Part shown: positions 58 through 23,924 of the stretch, piece after piece
How the letters are laid out: each line of letters opens with the position of its first letter
Numbering within the stretch: the stretch's first letter is position 1
Assembly (NCBI GenBank): GCA_019243195.1
Contig: JAFAUQ010000179.1
Coordinates: 1-33,370 of the forward strand
Reading direction: 5' to 3'
Source: Hyphomicrobiales bacterium
GTDB taxonomy: Bacteria > Pseudomonadota > Alphaproteobacteria > Rhizobiales > Xanthobacteraceae
Length of the DNA: 33,370 nt
Made by a program: the position numbers and the translations under genes
The notes under the pieces: model-generated
Told to the model about the DNA's origin: nothing
What the model saw: the letters and a program-made list of their open reading frames with translations, nothing else
Database searches by the model: none

Positions 58-2381
58 ACGATGCTGCGAACGATATCGCGCCGGCGCGCAACATCGGAAG
101 CTACGTGCCGCTGGTGGACGGCCCGGAGAAGGTTTCCGGCCGTGCCAAGTACACCGCCGACCTGATCGCGCCCGGAATGCTCGCCGGGCGCATCCTTCGC
201 AGCTCCAATTCGCACGCCGAGATTCTCGACGTCGACGTGTCGGAGGCGCGAAAGCTTCCTGGGGTCAAGGCGATCGTCACCGGCTCCGACTGCGACAAGG
301 CCTTCGGGGTGCTGCCGATCGCGCGCAGCGAGCATCCGCTCGCGCGCGACAAGGTGCGCTACAAGGGCGAGCCGGTGGCAGCGGTGGCAGCGGTCGACGA
401 CGCCACCGCGCGCAAGGCAATCGAACTCATCCGCATGAAAGTGCGCGAACTGCCCGCCTACTACACGGCGGCGGCGGCGCTCGCGCCCGACGCCGTCGCG
501 CTTCACCCGCGCCGTCCCGGCAACATCGAACGCGACGTGCTGTTCGAACTGGGCACCGTCGAGGACGGCTTCGCGCAGGCCGATCTGGTGCGCGAGGCGA
601 GCTACAACTGCGCCGAGGTGTGCCAGAACCAGATGGAGATGCACGCGGCGCTCGCCGAATATGACGCCGAGCGCGAGCGCATCACGGTCCATGCCTCGAC
701 CCAGGTGCCCTACTACGTGCACCTGATGCTGGCGCAAATCCTCGACATGGACATGTCGCGCGTCCGCGTGATCAAGCCGCACGTTGGCGGCGGCTTCGGC
801 TGCCGCACCGAGGCCCTCAACGTCGAGCTGATCACGGCGTTGCTCGCGCGCAAGGCCGGCGGCAGCGTGCGCACCGTGATCACTCGCGAGGAAACCTTCA
901 TCACGCACCGCGGCCGGCCGGAGACCGACATCAGGCTCAAGATCGGCCTGCGGCGGGACGGCCGCATCACTGCGGTCGAATGCGAATGCGACCAGCGCGG
1001 CGGAGCCCACAGCGGCTACGGCGTCGTCACGATTCTCTATTCCGGTTCGATGCTCTACGCGATCTACGATCTGCACAATGTCAAATACATCGGCCGCCGC
1101 GTACTCACCAATACGCCGCCGTGCGGCGCCTTCCGCGGCCACGGCACCGTCGACGTGCGCTTCGCCTTCGAAAGCCTGCTCGACCAGATGGCGCGCGAAC
1201 TTAATCTTGATCCGTTTGCGGTGCGGCGCGCGAATCTGCTTACCGCCCCGACGTTCACCGACAACGACCTGATGGTGAACAGCTACGGCCTGCCGCAATG
1301 CCTCGACTGGGTCGAGACGGCGAGCGGCTGGCGCGCGCGCCAGGGAAAGCTTGCGCGCGGCAAGGGCCTCGGCATGGCGTGCTCGCACTACATCAGCGGC
1401 GCCTCGAAGCCGGTCAACTGGACCGGCGAGCCGCACGCGACGGTCAAGCTCAAGCTCGATTTCGACGGTTCGATCGTGCTGCTCACCGGCGCCGCCGAAA
1501 TCGGCCAGGGCTCCTCGACCGTGCTGGTGCAGACTGTCGCCGAGGTGCTCGGGCTCGACATTTCCCGCATCCGCATCGTCAGCGGCGACAGCGACGTGGT
1601 GCCAAAGGACAACGGCTCCTATTCCTCGCGCGTCACCTTCATGGTCGGCAACGCGGCGATCGAAGCGGCACAGAATTTAAAAGGCATGCTGATCGCGGCA
1701 GCGGCGCGCAAGCTTGACGCGGCGCCGGGCGACATCGAGTGCCTGGGTGAGGTCTATCGGGCCGGCGCGCAGGATAAAGGGCTCTCGTTCCAGGAGGTGG
1801 TCACTGCGGCGCTTGCCGAAGCCGGCACCATCACGGTGACGGGAAATTATTCGACCATCCCGGAGTCGCACGGCGGCAAGAAATATCGCGGCGCCGCGAT
1901 CGGCGGCGCCATGGGCTACAGCTACTCGGCGCAGGTGGTCGAGGTGAGCGTCGACGAAGACACCGGCGTCGTGAGCGTCGACAAGGTGTGGGTCGCGCAC
2001 GACTGCGGCAAGGCGCTCAACCGGCTCACCGTCGAAGGCCAGGTGCAGGGGTCGGTATGGATGGGCATGGGCCAAGCGATGAGCGAGGAGGCCGCCTATC
2101 ACGACGGCCTGCTGGTCACCGCCAACATGCTCGACTATCGCGTGCCGACTATTTTCGACTCGCCGCCGATCGAAGTCGGCATCGTCGAGAGCAACGATCC
2201 GCACGGCCCGTTCGGTGCTAAGGAGGCGGGCGAAGGCTCGCTCGCCGCGTTCCTCCCCGCACTCACCAATGCGATCGCCGACGCGATCGGCGTCCGCTTC
2301 AACGATCTGCCGGTGACGCCGGACCGCGTGTTTGCCGCGCTGGAGAAGCGCCGGCGCGCGCGCGGCAACGGTGGCGAGTGA
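54..2381 (+). CDS. hcrA: 4-hydroxybenzoyl-CoA reductase alpha subunit (molybdopterin-binding)
   Basis: This is a 775-residue member of the xanthine dehydrogenase large-subunit family, close to the roughly 770 residues usual for HcrA. The enzyme reductively removes the ring hydroxyl of 4-hydroxybenzoyl-CoA to give benzoyl-CoA in the cytoplasm. Visible molybdenum-cofactor signatures are GGGFGCRTE near residue 243, CGAFRGHGT near 358 and GAKEAGEGS near 720, whose glutamate matches the catalytic Glu of the family. The GTG start overlaps the preceding stop, and the gene's own stop overlaps the start of hcrB, so the three subunits form one coupled operon in gamma-alpha-beta order. The neighbouring aryl-CoA ligase and the [4Fe-4S]-type beta subunit support 4-hydroxybenzoyl-CoA over xanthine, nicotinate or CO. 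Another hydroxy- or chloro-aroyl-CoA substrate cannot be excluded. Confidence 0.88.
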
Positions 2382-3406
2382 TGGACGCGCTGCCCGAGTT
2401 CCAATTACTGCGGCCGCGCACGCTGGGCGAAGCGCTCGCGGCGCGCACCGCTCACCCGGGAAGCCAGCTCATTGGCGGCGGCACCGACCTGTTGGTGAAC
2501 ATCCGCCGCGGCATCGTCGCACCGCCGGTGCTGCTCGATATGACGGGCGTGAGCGAACTCACGCAAATTTCGGCCGACGAGCAGCGGCTCGAGATCGGCG
2601 CTTCGGCAACGCTCGTCGATGTTGCAGCACATCCCGGCGTCGTCACCAACTATCCTACAGTGGCGCAGGCCGCGCACGGCGTCGCCGGCCCGACCCAGCG
2701 CAACATGGGCACGGTTGGCGGCAATCTCTGCCTCGACACGCGTTGCATCTTCTACAATCAAAGCACGTGGTGGCGTGCCGCCAACAATCATTGCCTAAAG
2801 ACCACCGGGGATGTTTGTTACGTAGCGCCGAAGAGCCACGGCGTGTGCTTCGCGACCTTCAGCGGCGATCTCGCACCGGCCCTGCTGGTGCTCGGCGCGC
2901 AGATCGACCTCGCCGGCCCCGGCGGCCGGCGCACGCTGCCGCTCGCCGACTTCTACATCGGCCACGCACGCCACGACACGGCGAGCGGCGACGGCAAGAA
3001 CTACTTGGCGCTGGCGCCGGACGAGATCGTGATCGCAGTGCGCGCCAAGCACACGCCGCGCCTGCGCTCGGGGTACGACAAAATCCGCATCCGCCGCTCG
3101 ATCGAATATCCGGTCGCCGGTGTCGCGGTGGCGCTCACCCGCGACGACGACGCGCTCGCCGATCTACGCGTCGCCTTCACCGGCACGAACCCGCGCCCGG
3201 TTCTGCTCGAGGGCACGGCGGCCTTATGCGGCAGCCCGTTGGATGAACGCGTGCTCGCCGGCCTCGATGCCCTGGTGCGCGACCAGATCATGGCGATGAA
3301 GACGACCTTCACGCCCGGCCATTACCGGCGTCGCGTCGCCGGCGTGCTCGCACGCCGGCTCGTTGCGCGCCTATGGGCGCAGGGATCAGAAATCCGGGAT
3401 CAGGGA

Positions 3407-3427
<21 letters not shown>
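2381..3427 (+). CDS. hcrB: 4-hydroxybenzoyl-CoA reductase beta subunit (FAD and [4Fe-4S])
   Basis: This is a 348-residue FAD-binding subunit of the molybdenum hydroxylase family. FAD-binding motifs LIGGGTDLLVN (30-40) and NMGTVGGNLC (108-117) are clear. A loop after the second motif carries Cys117, Cys122, Cys138, Cys146 and Cys156. Such a cysteine-rich insert is the hallmark of 4-hydroxybenzoyl-CoA reductase, where it holds an extra [4Fe-4S] cluster absent from xanthine dehydrogenases, and it is the strongest evidence for the substrate class. ATG at 2381 shares one base with the hcrA stop; GTG at 2378 is the alternative start. The last dozen or so codons (SEIRDQGSG and following) are translated from a GGGATCA-type heptamer hairpin, so the native C-terminus has been extended or replaced by repeat sequence. 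The gene overlaps the convergent ligase by 21 bases. Confidence 0.88.
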
Positions 3428-5528
<2,101 letters not shown>

Positions 5529-8002: not shown

Positions 8003-9058
8003 ATGCGCGTTCTGGTCACCGGAGGAGCAGGTTTCATCGGCTCGGCGGTGTGCCATGCGCTCGTCAAGCGCGGCGCAACCGTCGTCAATGTCGATAAGCT
8101 CACCTACGCGGCCAACCCGCGCTCGCTCGAAACCCTTGCGCATGATCCGCACTACGCTTTTGAACGCGGCGACATTTGCGACCGCGCCGCTATGGACGTA
8201 GTGCTGGCGAAATACCAGCCCTCCGCCGTGCTGCATCTCGCGGCCGAGAGCCATGTCGATCGTTCGATCACCGGCACTGCGCCCTTCATCGATACAAACA
8301 TCAGCGGCACTTATCACCTGTTGGAAGCCGCCCGGCAGTATTGGGCCGGGCTCGCGACACCGGCGCGCGCGGCTTTCCGCTTCGTCCACGTGTCGACCGA
8401 TGAGGTCTACGGCTCGCTCGGCCCCGAAGGCCTTTTCCATGAGGACACACCCTATCGCCCGAGTTCCCCCTATTCCGCGAGCAAGGCGGCCTCCGATCAC
8501 CTCGCCCAGGCGTGGCATCGCACCTACGGGCTTCCGGTCATGCTGTCGAACTGTTCGAATAACTACGGGCCGCGGCAATTTCCCGAAAAGCTGATCCCGC
8601 TCACCATTCTCAAGGCCCTGGCAGCCGAGGCGTTGCCGGTCTACGGCGACGGCTCGAACGTGCGTGACTGGCTTCACGTCGAGGACCATGCGGCAGGCCT
8701 GATCGCGATCGTCGAGCGCGGGCGACCAGGCGAGCGCTACAATTTCGGCGGCGAGAGCGAGCGTACCAACCTGGCCGTGGTCGAGCACATCTGCACGGCG
8801 CTCGACCGCCTCCGGCCGGCGGCGCAGCCGCGCCGGAAACTGATCACCTTCGTGACCGACCGGCCGGGGCACGATCAGCGCTACGCCATCGATGCCACCA
8901 AAGCGCGCCGCGAACTTGGCTGGAAACCCAGCCGGCATTTCGAGGCCGGTCTCGAGCAAACGGTGCAATGGTACCTGGAGAACCGCGCGTGGTGGGAACC
9001 CGTGCAGGCGCGGGTCTACGGCGGCGAGCGCCTCGGCCTGCTCGAACCCGCCCAGTAA
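8003..9058 (+). CDS. rfbB: dTDP-glucose 4,6-dehydratase
   Basis: This 351-residue extended SDR enzyme converts dTDP-D-glucose to dTDP-4-keto-6-deoxy-D-glucose, the second step to dTDP-L-rhamnose. The NAD-binding motif [10 protein letters not shown] opens the protein. STDEVYG carries Asp133-Glu134, and YSASK carries Tyr157 and Lys161. The stretch [18 protein letters not shown] and the late YNFGGESE are RmlB signatures. Both GTG 8000 and ATG 8003 are possible starts. I prefer the ATG, with AGGA about 10 bases upstream. It lies 15 bases after rfbC and 6 bases before rfbD. Confidence 0.95.
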
Positions 9059-20033: not shown

Positions 20034-20174
20034 AAAGTATGATCCCGAAAAAGCCTGCCCCGCACTTGATGCGGGGTGGGTACCGGTTTCCCGCCTGCGC
20101 GAAGCTCTTGGCACGTTTCCTCGTTTGGCTTGGAGCTTCGGCGGGGCGAAGCCAGGTCGTAAAAGATCATGCTC
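20034..20174. repeat. Composite intergenic palindromic repeat
   Basis: The outer arms ATGATC (20039-20044) and GATCAT (20165-20170) lie in contexts TATGATCCCGAAAA and AAAAGATCATGCT. These are the termini of an intergenic element I know from Bradyrhizobium-type genomes. Between them sit the TGGGTACCGGTTT core, an independent hairpin CCCCGCA-CTTGA-TGCGGGG (20058-20076) and a further palindromic segment with CTTCG-GCGGGG-CGAAG (about 20136-20151). It looks like one repeat with others nested inside. The ribosome-binding site of the next gene begins just after it. Confidence 0.65.
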
Positions 20175-20194: not shown

Positions 20195-20860
20195 ATGGGC
20201 CGTTTGCTCAACGTCGTCACGCCGCTGCACCAGATGACCAAGCGCGATTACCTCGCGCGCATGGTCGACGACAAAGTCCATTGCATGCTCAAGGCCAAGG
20301 AATACGAGGCCGATTACTGGGACGGCGACCGGCGCTACGGTTACGGCGGCTACCGTTACCTTCCCGGCCGCTGGAAGCCGGTCGCGCAGGCTCTGATCGA
20401 TCTCTATGGCCTCAAACCCGATGCCCGCATCCTCGACGTGGGCTGCGGCAAGGGCTTCCTGCTCTACGAATTTCTCCAGCTGCTGCCGCAGGCGCGCATC
20501 GTCGGCTTCGACGTGTCGCACCACGGCCTCGCCGACGCCAAGCCCGAGCTGCGCGACCGGCTGTTCCGTTACCAGGCGCAGGACCGCTACCCGTTCGGCG
20601 ACGGCGCCTTCGACCTCGTGGTCTCGCTCGGTACCCTGCACAATCTGAAAATCTTCGAGCTGCAGAGCGCCTTGCAGGAAATCGAGCGGGTCGGGCGCAA
20701 CAAATACGTGATGGTCGAGAGCTACCGCAACGAGCGCGAACAATTCAACATGCAGTGCTGGGCGCTCACCGCCGAAGCGTTCTACGACACCGCCTCATGG
20801 ATTTGGCTTTACAACCACTTCGGCTATACCGGCGACTACGAGTTCATCTACTTCGAATAG
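20195..20860 (+). CDS. Class I SAM-dependent methyltransferase
   Basis: This 221-residue protein has SAM motif I RILDVGCGKGFLLYEF (about 72-87), the acidic motif ARIVGFDVS and FDLVVSLGTLHNL. The C-terminal part VMVESYRNEREQFNMQCWAL is distinctive but not diagnostic to me. ATG 20195 follows AGGA at short spacing, immediately downstream of the composite repeat. The dehydrogenase downstream is on the same strand, but a heptamer hairpin separates the two. In this locus it probably methylates a sugar or activated-sugar intermediate; the acceptor is unknown. Confidence 0.78.
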   Translation: MGRLLNVVTPLHQMTKRDYLARMVDDKVHCMLKAKEYEADYWDGDRRYGYGGYRYLPGRWKPVAQALIDLYGLKPDARILDVGCGKGFLLYEFLQLLPQARIVGFDVSHHGLADAKPELRDRLFRYQAQDRYPFGDGAFDLVVSLGTLHNLKIFELQSALQEIERVGRNKYVMVESYRNEREQFNMQCWALTAEAFYDTASWIWLYNHFGYTGDYEFIYFE

Positions 20861-20861
20861 A

Positions 20862-20959
20862 GGCGAGTGGCGAGTTGCGAATGGCGAATGGTGAGTAGTC
20901 AATGGTGAGTAGCTCAGACGCCTCATCACCACTCACTACTCACCACTCCCTATTCACGC
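20862..20959. repeat. Heptamer hairpin, GTGAGTA/GCGAATG units
   Basis: The left arm (about 20863-20913) holds 7-nt units such as GCGAATG, GTGAGTA and GTGAGTA. The right arm (about 20923-20958) holds complementary CTCACTA/CTCACCA-type units ending in TATTCAC. A loop of about 10 bases separates them. It fills almost the whole gap between a methyltransferase and a dehydrogenase gene on the same strand. Confidence 0.75.
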
Positions 20960-20978
20960 AGGCAGAAGAACTAAGGCA

Positions 20979-22025
20979 ATGCAGGTTAAGACAGCTAAGG
21001 CCGCCATCCTTGCCCGCTCGCGCGAGCCCCTCGTGGTCGATGAGATCGCGTTGCCGGAGGCGCTCGATGCCGGGCAAGTGCTGATCAAAGTGCTGCACAC
21101 GACGATTTGCGGCGCGCAGATCAACGAGATCGACGCGGTCAAAGGGCCGGACAAGTTCCTGCCGCACCTGCTCGGGCACGAGGCATCGGCGGAGGTGATC
21201 GAGATCGGTCCGGGCGTGACCCAAGTGAAACCCGGCGACACCGTGGTGCTGCACTGGCGCCCGAGCCGCGGCATTGCCAGCCGCACGCCGTCCTATCGCT
21301 GGCGCGGAGAGCATCTCAACGCCGGTTGGGTCACGACCTTCAATGACTACGCAGTGGTTTCGGAAAACCGGATGACCCCGATCCCGGCCGACTTCGACCT
21401 GAAAATCGCGCCGCTGTTCGGCTGCGCCGTGACCACGGCGGCCGGCGTCGTCAACAATGATGCCAAACTCAAGATCGGCGAATCGGTCGTGATCTTCGGC
21501 GTCGGCGGCGTCGGCCTCAATCTCGTTCAGTTCGCGCAGCTCGCCGGCGCCTATCCGATCATCGCGGTTGATTTGCTCGCCCATAAGCTCGAGATGGCGA
21601 AGGCACGCGGGGCGACCCACTGCATCGATGCATCGAAGACGAGCGACGTCGGCGGCGCGATCCGCGCGATCGTCGGCGCGGCCGGCCCCGACAAGGTGCT
21701 GGAGACCACCGGGGTCAAGTCGGTGATCGAACTCGCCTACGAGCTGACCCACCCGGACGGAACCTGTGTGCTGGTCGGCGTGCCCAACGAGAAGGTCACG
21801 ATCTACACGCTGCCGATTCACTTCAACAAAGTGCTCACCGGCTCGCACGGCGGCGACGCCGCCCCGCACATCGACATTCCCCGCATCATCCGCCTGGTAC
21901 GCGCCGGCCGGCTCTCGTTCGACGACATCATTACCCACGAATTCCCCCTCGCCGAAATCAACGCCGCGCTCGATCTCGTGCGCAGCGGCAAGGCGGGGCG
22001 TGTGCTGGTGAATGTGGGAAGCTAG
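20979..22025 (+). CDS. Zinc-type medium-chain alcohol dehydrogenase
   Basis: This 348-residue MDR-family dehydrogenase retains the catalytic zinc ligands Cys44 (TTICGAQ), His67-Glu68 (LLGHEA) and Cys149 (FGCAVTT). Its nucleotide-binding motif is IFGVGGVGLN. The loop that normally carries four structural-zinc cysteines (around LHWRPSRGIASRTPSYRWRG) has none, so the structural zinc is absent. It would oxidise or reduce an alcohol/ketone with NAD(P). In this locus a sugar or polyol substrate is likely, perhaps linked to the split transketolase further down. ATG 20979 gives normal length. It is bounded on both sides by heptamer hairpins. Confidence 0.82.
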   Translation: MQVKTAKAAILARSREPLVVDEIALPEALDAGQVLIKVLHTTICGAQINEIDAVKGPDKFLPHLLGHEASAEVIEIGPGVTQVKPGDTVVLHWRPSRGIASRTPSYRWRGEHLNAGWVTTFNDYAVVSENRMTPIPADFDLKIAPLFGCAVTTAAGVVNNDAKLKIGESVVIFGVGGVGLNLVQFAQLAGAYPIIAVDLLAHKLEMAKARGATHCIDASKTSDVGGAIRAIVGAAGPDKVLETTGVKSVIELAYELTHPDGTCVLVGVPNEKVTIYTLPIHFNKVLTGSHGGDAAPHIDIPRIIRLVRAGRLSFDDIITHEFPLAEINAALDLVRSGKAGRVLVNVGS

Positions 22026-22096
22026 CGAATAGCGAGTAGCGAATAGTAGTGGGAACCGCGGAGAATCCATTCGCTATTCGCTATTCGCTATTCGCA
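22025..22096. repeat. Heptamer hairpin, GCGAATA units, between convergent genes
   Basis: The left arm is GCGAATA-GCGAGTA-GCGAATA (22025-22045). The right arm has four TATTCGC-type units (about 22068-22095), with about 22 bases between. The minus-strand gene's last codons (RIANSE) are read from the right arm. The position between convergent ends suggests a bidirectional terminator. Confidence 0.8.
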
Positions 22097-23924
22097 CGTC
22101 GATATGTAAGCTCGACGCCGGCTGCCCAGCGCCATCGCCCGCCGCCGCGAACAAATTGGCCAATAACGTCAGCAACGCGAGCGGCACGGCAAACAGCGCC
22201 AGCCCCGGCAGCCCGATCCACGGCCGCTGGTGCGCGTCCGCACCCAGCCGCGCGAAAGTCTGGTAGGACCACGCGCGCAGGCGGCTCGCCGGAACATAAC
22301 GGATCTCCTGCAGTCGCGCTGCGCCGCGCAGCGTCTCGGCGAGCGCCGTTGCGAACGATTCCGCGTTTTCCATCGGTCGCGGCTCCCGCACGACAATCAG
22401 CACCGTTCCGCCACCCTGCATCGCAGGCGCGATCCTGCGGATGAGTTCCCCAGTCTTTTCGACATCGCGTTGGTCGAGTTCGATGAGACACAGGCCGAAG
22501 TGGTCGACAAACCCGTCACGGACAGGCGCGCCCTGAAGGAAAGGAGTTGTTTGAAGGGTGGTGACGCGCTGCCCGTATGCCGCCAGCATCACGGAGAACA
22601 GCGTCGGCGCATCGGCAACGTGCAGCAGGCGCCGCGCCGGATTGGCGAAGAAAGGCGAGAGCCGTCGTAACACCGGCCCATAGTCCGGCCAGCGCGGATG
22701 CCAGGGCCGCACGCCCGGTGGATAGCCGATCAGGAGAGCGCGGAGCCGTTCTATCCAACGGCCGCGCCGGCTCGCCGCGCCGAGAAGCGCGCGCAGCGCC
22801 TCGGGGCTCAGCTGCCCGCGCGCCGCCTCCTGCACCGTGGCAATGGCGCCGCGCCAATAGGGATGCCCGTAATGCGGCTGCGGCGGGCTCCGCAGCCGCC
22901 GCGTCACTTGCACCACGTAATCGTCCGCCGCCGCGACGGCAGCGGGCAACGCGGCCGGCAGCTCGCCGGCGTGATAGACGACCGTATGGGCGACGTTTTG
23001 ACGATGCTGCGCCGTCGTCCATTCCTCGAGGCTGCGCGCAAGGACATCCGGTTGCAGCGGCCCTGGCCGCAGGAACCCCGCCTCGTGCGTTCGCGGCTGC
23101 ATTTCCACGACCAGGTATTCGTCGGAATCGGTAATGACGGAGACGTTCCCGGACGGACACATCTCCGGCACGAAGGAATAATCCCACGATGCGCCGACCC
23201 GGAAGTCGATCACCTCGGGACGAACGGCGATCATGTGCATCAGAAAAAACCGGCCGAGCAGCGTTTGCTCATCGACGCGCCAGAACAGGCGGTTGGTGTG
23301 CGCGTTGTGCGTGGATGAGACGTTCACCGTGTTGGCGACGGTGGCAGGGTGAAGATGATCGAGCGCAAAGCGCATCAGCGCCCGGGCGGAAAAGGCGGCG
23401 CCCGCCGCTGGGTGGGGCCCGATGCGCGCACGCAGCCACGGGGTCGCTTCCTCGGCGGTGACTTGGAAATTGCCGACCAGCACCGCGCTGGCGCCGGCGC
23501 GCACGCGCGCGAGCACGCTCGCCAGTGAACCATCGGCAACGATGTAATCGGAGACAAGAAACATGAAGCACGTGTCGAGCATGGCGGGGCCTGCGGCACG
23601 GATTGCCTCCGCGTACGCCAGGGTGAGCGTGGTGGAATTGTTCCCTGCCGTGATCAGATGATCGATCGGCCGGAGACTCGCCGGGCAGATGTCGGCCAGA
23701 CGAAGAAAAGCCGGATGCTGGCGGATGTAGCTTTCGTCCGCGGCGCTGGTGAGGATTGCAAATTCGCTCGGCAGCGACTGCGCCAACGCCGGCACGTTTC
23801 TCGGCGCCAGCAACGTGGGCAGCCCGATTTCGAGAAATTGCCGGACGTAGCGGTGGCCCCAGACCGGCAGCAGCAATTTGACCGATTTGAGCGGCGGGCG
23901 TCGGTCGCGCTCGATTTGCTGCAA
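22074..23924 (-). CDS. Unrecognised two-domain protein: glycosyltransferase-like N-terminus, methyltransferase-like C-terminus, terminal membrane helix
   Basis: I do not recognise this 616-residue protein. The N-terminal part begins VKLLLPVWGHRYVRQFLEIG and contains FLVSDYIVADGS, which resembles a GT-A fold with an acidic metal-binding motif (about residues 18-300). Residues about 470-560 resemble a degenerate Rossmann methyltransferase domain: RRLLHVADAPTLF, then FGLCLIELDQRDVEKTG and MQGGGTVLIVVRE. A hydrophobic stretch near the end (LFAVPLALLTLLANLF) could anchor it. The open frame continues upstream to 24095 inside the acyltransferase gene. TTG 23924, 4 bases after that gene's stop, is the most economical start, and ATG 24014 is another choice. 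The final RIANSE comes from the adjacent hairpin. Confidence 0.6.
   Translation of the reverse strand: MQQIERDRRPPLKSVKLLLPVWGHRYVRQFLEIGLPTLLAPRNVPALAQSLPSEFAILTSAADESYIRQHPAFLRLADICPASLRPIDHLITAGNNSTTLTLAYAEAIRAAGPAMLDTCFMFLVSDYIVADGSLASVLARVRAGASAVLVGNFQVTAEEATPWLRARIGPHPAAGAAFSARALMRFALDHLHPATVANTVNVSSTHNAHTNRLFWRVDEQTLLGRFFLMHMIAVRPEVIDFRVGASWDYSFVPEMCPSGNVSVITDSDEYLVVEMQPRTHEAGFLRPGPLQPDVLARSLEEWTTAQHRQNVAHTVVYHAGELPAALPAAVAAADDYVVQVTRRLRSPPQPHYGHPYWRGAIATVQEAARGQLSPEALRALLGAASRRGRWIERLRALLIGYPPGVRPWHPRWPDYGPVLRRLSPFFANPARRLLHVADAPTLFSVMLAAYGQRVTTLQTTPFLQGAPVRDGFVDHFGLCLIELDQRDVEKTGELIRRIAPAMQGGGTVLIVVREPRPMENAESFATALAETLRGAARLQEIRYVPASRLRAWSYQTFARLGADAHQRPWIGLPGLALFAVPLALLTLLANLFAAAGDGAGQPASSLHIDVRIANSE

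Follow-up and report, generated by a model that had tools for sequence, protein, structure and literature searches.

How does a genome come to carry hairpins that share a design, two arms of repeated 7-nt units in inverted order around a short loop, while the units themselves differ? The question was raised by the window, a stretch of 33,370 nucleotides (contig C61 of draft genome G000; 4.47 Mb, 285 contigs, 66% complete), in which a sequence-only reading had claimed three such hairpins at 3381, 20862 and 22025, each with its own heptamer, and had proposed that slippage and strand switching during copying produced them. All three hairpins exist. Inverted-repeat arms were found at 3380-3447 (extending to 3459), 20879-20955 and 22023-22095, and TRF gave period 7 in every arm (3380-3411, 3423-3459, 20862-20896, 20926-20948, 22023-22046 and 22069-22095). 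Folding agreed, with RNA z-scores of -4.9 (20862-20959), -7.6 (22021-22098) and -8.6 (3378-3460), each equalled by 0 of 200 shuffles, and DNA z-scores of -3.0, -6.0 and -6.3 for the three hairpins. Rfam returned no match to the window at gathering thresholds. The claim of three different heptamers held only in part: the hairpin at 3381 is distinct (CAGGGAT), whereas those at 20862 and 22023 share GCGAATR/GTGARTR units.

Hairpin 1 occupies a convergent junction. Its 5′ purine-rich arm (3382..3411, + strand), made of CAGGGAT units plus CAGAAAT and CCGGGAT (class B of the four vocabularies described below), codes for the 11-residue C-terminal tail of a FAD-binding protein (2378-3427). Beyond the loop (3412..3429, no strand), the 3′ pyrimidine-rich arm (3430..3459), with class B units on the - strand, codes for a 13-residue tail of an AMP-binding enzyme (3407-5161). 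Hairpin 2 fills the gap between a methyltransferase stop (20860) and a dehydrogenase ATG (20979). Its 5′ purine-rich array (20862..20908, + strand, class A) consists of GCGAGTG, GCGAGTT, GCGAATG, GCGAATG, GTGAGTA and GTCAATG; across a loop at 20909..20925 (no strand), its innermost 30 nt (20879-20908) form base pairs with the 3′ pyrimidine-rich array (20926..20957, - strand). Hairpin 3 begins with a 5′ purine-rich array of class A units (22023..22046, + strand), whose first TAG terminates the reading frame of the zinc-type dehydrogenase (20979-22025), and continues through its loop (22047..22068, no strand) into a 3′ pyrimidine-rich array (22069..22095, - strand) with a 100% match at period 7.

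The design is widespread in the genome from which the window comes, where one element used as query gave 72 matches. A hairpin census covered 101 contig stretches, amounting to 1.36 Mb including the window, or 30% of the genome. The search, which was blind to orientation, returned 44 hairpins with period-7 arms, and removal of one GC palindrome (L096:6273) left 43, most of them at gene 3′ ends. Scaled up from this sample, the genome would hold roughly 140. The 43 hairpins use four separate vocabularies: class A (G[CT]GA[AG]T[AG], 25 hairpins, including those at 20862 and 22023), class D (GACRGAN, 12), class B (CAGGGAT, 3, including that at 3381) and class C (CAGTRAT, 3). The classes are kept apart save for a slight overlap of B and C, for which mixed arrays occur. 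The 7-nt period also withstood a formal, motif-free lag scan of 813 kb of this genome. With a locus defined as at least 20 of 24 matches at lag p, we counted 22 loci at p = 7, 15 at 14 and 7 at 21; shuffled sequence gave 1-2, and the remaining lags examined gave 1-4 apart from lag 18. That lag was also in excess (7 loci in the same scan), which heptamers do not explain.

Among the 86 arms, in a count from which detection drops short arms, four units was the commonest number (36 arms; three units in 15 and five in 21). Class A arms co-varied modestly in this genome, with Spearman coefficients of 0.41 and 0.47 at two unit positions and 0.24, not significant, at a third. Class D arms did not co-vary (Spearman -0.02, n = 12), and adjacent class D units were as alike as units from different elements (0.778 versus 0.777), a pattern that simple slippage does not predict. 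At two elements the arms are unlike in composition and appear homogenised separately: L053:5076-5190 (GTGAGTA left, GTGAGTG right) and L014:10300-10391 (GTGAATG versus GTGAGTA). Two convergent class A arrays about 400 nt apart (L023:8091-8131 and 8526-8563) resemble a hairpin with a huge loop, and a long class C array, one-sided and some ten CAGTRAT units in length, lies at G000:C109:10947-11016.

To follow one site through many relatives, we used the junction at which a transport permease gene (PF00528) meets an aldehyde dehydrogenase gene (PF00171), present in 116 of 119 Mesorhizobium-centre genomes. Ninety of the 116 were examined; 29 were empty and 61 filled, a ratio that is no unbiased frequency because the 90 comprise the 30 best matches plus 60 picked by hand. 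Three duplicate genomes (L163, L188 and L193) were excluded from the site statistics. The arm tests took only elements with two or more units in each arm, which retained 62 and 61 of 64. Copies in Aminobacter, Shinella and Rhizobium occupy the same site. Different Mesorhizobium species carry GCGAATA-, GTGAGTA- and GGCAGTA-type hairpins here, and the copies differ in unit number as well as type, ranging from short C-type hairpins to long T-type hairpins with arms of up to about ten units. The expectations that the design is kept while its sequence varies, and that unit number changes between relatives, were thus both borne out at a single orthologous site. The element of L323 consists wholly of GGCARTN units, unlike those of L319, L340 and L341, the genomes closest to it (clade support 99%); in L342 we recognised no array at the junction.

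The two arms of an element resemble each other at this site. Arm type was equal left and right in all 61 scorable elements (46 C, 15 T; Spearman 0.94), and opposite arms of one element were 0.763 identical, compared with 0.721 (s.d. 0.005, maximum 0.742 of 2,000) when right arms were permuted among the 62 elements. This co-variation is phylogenetically weak: each arm changes 14 times on the tree, yet supported branches give no more than 2 independent pairs. In L318 a left arm of about seven near-identical units stands opposite a mixed right arm, indicating that growth is possible in one arm alone. Six elements are inverted between unchanged flanks (reversed alignment scores of 52-59 versus 40-46), and the loops of L319 and L323 match in opposite orientation. 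In L333 and L334, T-type arms enclose a loop of the C-type family (score 16 versus a shuffled 99th percentile of 9), an in-place switch of unit type around a shared loop. Most T-type loops are unrelated to C-type loops, however, so for them replacement of the whole element fits as well as in-place switching.

A tree of the junction genes (574 columns, 13 of 91 inner branches starred) gave 16 changes between empty and filled, 14 of arm type and 3 of orientation. Given the weak support and likely recombination, these state changes are not event counts, and the tree does not separate gain from loss. The six inverted copies may go back to one event (3 tree changes; a single clade was not rejected, p-AU 0.236), and recombination among Mesorhizobium could spread junction states. 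The site offers a natural series, from empty through filled and longer to inverted and re-typed, in which origin, growth and decay can be measured.

Comparison of relatives thus shows gain or loss of elements at fixed junctions, change of unit number, joint arm type and flipping of whole elements. We consider it probable, though far from certain, that these are dispersed heptamer-array hairpins at gene 3′ ends, shaped by slippage and by template switching between their arms. Inverted arrays of about four 7-nt units would settle at gene 3′ ends; unit number would then change by replication slippage inside an arm, and DNA polymerase switching template between the hairpin arms would keep the arms complementary and sometimes flip the element. 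Template switching at inverted repeats is known to homogenise arms and invert spacers (PMC8604942), and is described as creating and maintaining hairpins (PMC8794818). Of these marks of a template-switch hot spot, spacer inversion between fixed flanks was found, as was arm homogenisation, which is weak once phylogeny is considered and missing from class D in the window's own genome. Joint arm type, inversion and unit-number change together form a slippage and template-switch signature, and the copying process put forward by the sequence-only reading is supported to that extent, by one-arm growth in L318, the 61 of 61 joint arm types and the inverted elements. It does not account for class D, nor can it yield the same few heptamers at unlinked sites around unrelated loops; as a guess, arrays could reach such sites by copying from an existing array through short microhomology.

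Position, on this slippage and template-switching account, would mainly reflect what is tolerated, after stop codons and away from promoters, with the element often providing a stop or a short protein tail. Fifteen of the 43 hairpins lie between convergent genes, 24 between co-directional genes, 1 between divergent genes and 3 inside a predicted gene, although divergent arrangements account for 19% of gene pairs and their spacers for 26% of intergenic bases. Where a gene 3′ end faces a hairpin no more than 150 nt away (48 cases), it falls inside the hairpin in 14 and within 10 nt of it in 18 (32/48 together). The stop beside class A is TAG in 16 of 31 cases compared with 27% of all genes (P = 0.003), an excess expected where a heptamer unit supplies the stop. 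With gene calls from our own dicodon script rather than a standard caller, 18 gene ends in 15 of the 43 hairpins carry element-encoded tails such as RDQGSG, RIANGE, TRANSE and RRRTEDGRGQRG, confirming for this genome the earlier suspicion that tails such as RDQGSG derive from these elements. Short nonsense tails are thereby added to many predicted proteins, and annotation is affected.

The same placement could instead mean that the elements are selected as bidirectional 3′-end RNA hairpins (transcription terminators or protectors of mRNA), with fold and position constrained and the sequence free. The strong folding, the convergent bias with a single divergent case and the strand-symmetric composition suit such a role; on both strands a purine 5′ arm goes with a pyrimidine 3′ arm, and the 5′ arm was more than half purine in 42 of 43 heptamer hairpins, compared with 64 of 98 among hairpins of this genome that lack heptamers. 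However, a T-run after the hairpin is lacking, and a terminator scan of 20700-22300, which covered hairpins 2 and 3, flagged neither of them. The elements also sit between closely spaced genes whose orthologues in relatives are separated by just 8-13 nt: the orthologous methyltransferase/dehydrogenase gap, with no element, measures 13 nt in G085 and, for two copies in G075, 8 and 10 nt. The 29 empty Mesorhizobium junctions point the same way, and the placement is equally expected if promoters and start regions merely do not tolerate insertion. We regard selection for an RNA hairpin as an unlikely main cause; a putative bidirectional 3′-end role, if any, would be secondary.

The convergent junction of hairpin 1 likewise varies among relatives. 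Heptamers were not found at the orthologous site in G114 or G020; the FAD-binding protein of G114 stops at ...RLFEGG, where the window version continues into RDQGSG, and G075 has a different sequence at this junction. As a separate observation, the window carries at 20034-20090 a repeat GTATGATCCCGAAAAAGCC...GGTACCGGTTT that belongs to another intergenic family, with about 30 listed copies in G075, one similar copy lying at the hairpin-1 junction of that genome.

Across the family (119 genomes, 47 genera), to which the window's own genome probably belongs as a Xanthobacteraceae-like member, three consecutive class A units occurred in 44 of the 119 genomes, with 352 hits in the window's own genome and 0 in G030 of the same genus; a reversed-pattern control gave 6 hits in the own genome and 0-2 elsewhere. 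Class D was found in 12 of the 119, and classes B and C in 5. The D-rich G075, G049 and G096 are almost without class A, and the A-rich G009 lacks D, which indicates turnover of vocabulary between close relatives. Among named genomes the class A hairpin pattern matched 66 stretches, mostly in Hyphomicrobiales, with matches outside that order including Arcicella (Bacteroidota) and an Ignavibacteria MAG. Loss of SbcD as a permissive factor was considered and dropped, as the 2 of 119 genomes over the SbcD cut-off, one of them the array-rich G009, showed no link. Carriage by phage was rejected when a search with one Mesorhizobium copy found no match in the phage set; the same copy matched 2 plasmid records, both rhizobial.

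Such a patchy, high-copy distribution at gene ends recalls REP elements, short intergenic hairpins that are likewise abundant near gene ends (PMC2817692), and the elements might be non-autonomous and moved as complete hairpins by a REP-associated tyrosine transposase (RAYT) or another enzyme. Class A arrays are commoner in genomes with a Y1_Tnp gene (20 of 32 versus 24 of 87; Fisher P = 0.001), and one arm, GCGAATA GGGAGTA GCGAATA GCGAATA, keeps its unit order in many rhizobial copies, several of them unlinked. Yet only 6 of the 14 genomes with at least 10 hits have Y1_Tnp, and the two richest, G000 and G009 (99% complete), have neither Y1_Tnp nor RAYT by protein search, an absence that is weak evidence in the incomplete G000. 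We found no heptamer arrays beside 12 RAYT loci (about eight distinct genes), although a RAYT is said always to have its REPs at its flanks (PMC2817692). There is no fixed palindrome, copies differing in unit number, type and loop. Loops were not shared in the own genome (40 loops, 780 pairs, best score 10 versus shuffled maxima of 9-13) and target duplications were absent (flank repeats averaging 2.93 versus 3.08 under the null). A consistent RAYT link was accordingly rejected, the association being modest and missing where arrays are richest, and so was transposition of whole hairpins within this genome; a MITE or other transposon lacks both the shared internal sequence and the target site duplications. 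Movement of complete hairpins by an enzyme thus seems to us doubtful. Apart from the heptamer hairpins, the genome does hold a REP-like family of the classical sort: an inverted repeat of fixed sequence, GAGCCCGGAACCCATGAACAC...GTGTTCATGGGTTCCGGGCTC, that occurs with variants in several copies (L010:1397-1463, L012:17006-17073, L030:3954-4019, L030:5514-5580 and L037:1546-1604).

A more speculative idea, which we think improbable, is a dedicated trans-acting writer, for instance an enzyme that reads a short repeating template of RNA or DNA. Such a writer would surround local sequence at gene 3′ ends with heptamers specific to the lineage and leave local template switching to make the second arm. 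If true, it would explain a genome-wide vocabulary with site-private loops and four unmixed classes, why the vocabulary changes from one species to another within a genus, and why class D units seem to come from a common pool and not from the adjacent unit. Accidental slippage at local chance heptamers, with no spread between sites, is very unlikely: among long repeat units, one of 7 nt is reported to be the most frequent in many bacteria and is ascribed to polymerase slippage (PMC4692102, PMC4679880), but the same few heptamers recur at unlinked sites, the four classes do not mix, and class D units are as alike between elements as within an arm.

These dispersed heptamer hairpins have partial counterparts among known systems. 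Template switching at quasipalindromes (PMC8604942, PMC8794818) yields the same arm homogenisation and spacer inversion, but is a general mutational process rather than an element family, and dispersed heptamer hairpins do not figure in the accounts cited. In the literature searched, which covered few subscription titles, no paper dealt with GCGAATA hairpins and none held the literal 15-mer; novelty is not thereby proven. Records of heptamer repeats as such go back at least to surveys cited by the authors of PMC4692102, who regard the role of these repeats as not yet elucidated. Dispersed 7-nt arrays, patchy across phyla as here, are described in Geobacter metallireducens, where GGACCGG x4 (49 copies) and MTYCTGA x5 were interpreted as RNA elements or regulator sites (PMC2700814), and in Beggiatoaceae, where TAACTGA sets lie mostly upstream of start codons, are direct repeats in all cases but one indirect set, and likewise place stops in all three frames (PMC4679880).

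The closest known kind is the GGGNATC or GGGGA(C/T)T heptameric repeat of Xanthomonas and Nostoc (Rehm et al. 2015, PMC4692102). According to that report, the Xanthomonas repeats consist of 7-nt units at about 180 sites per genome, with 70-75 cases of convergent inverted pairs; GGGAATC repeats lie right after stops and seldom between divergent genes, their length varies between relatives, four units is the commonest number, and function is left open. Our elements share the tandem 7-nt units, the many sites per genome, the convergent inverted pairs near stops, the rarity between divergent genes, four as the commonest unit number and differences in length from one relative to another. Unlike those repeats, units here are mostly without G-tracts (GCGAATA, GTGAGTA, GACGGAC); judged from their letters, GGG occurs only in class B and is missing from classes A, C and D. 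Quadruplexes therefore cannot explain the preference for four units here, and a preference for about four units without G-tracts argues against a quadruplex explanation of that number. Also unlike the Xanthomonas repeats, these elements use four vocabularies in one genome and display inversion and switching of type at the same site. Hairpins that appear, grow, flip and change their words yet stay hairpins offer a means of studying how repeats of this sort come to be written.
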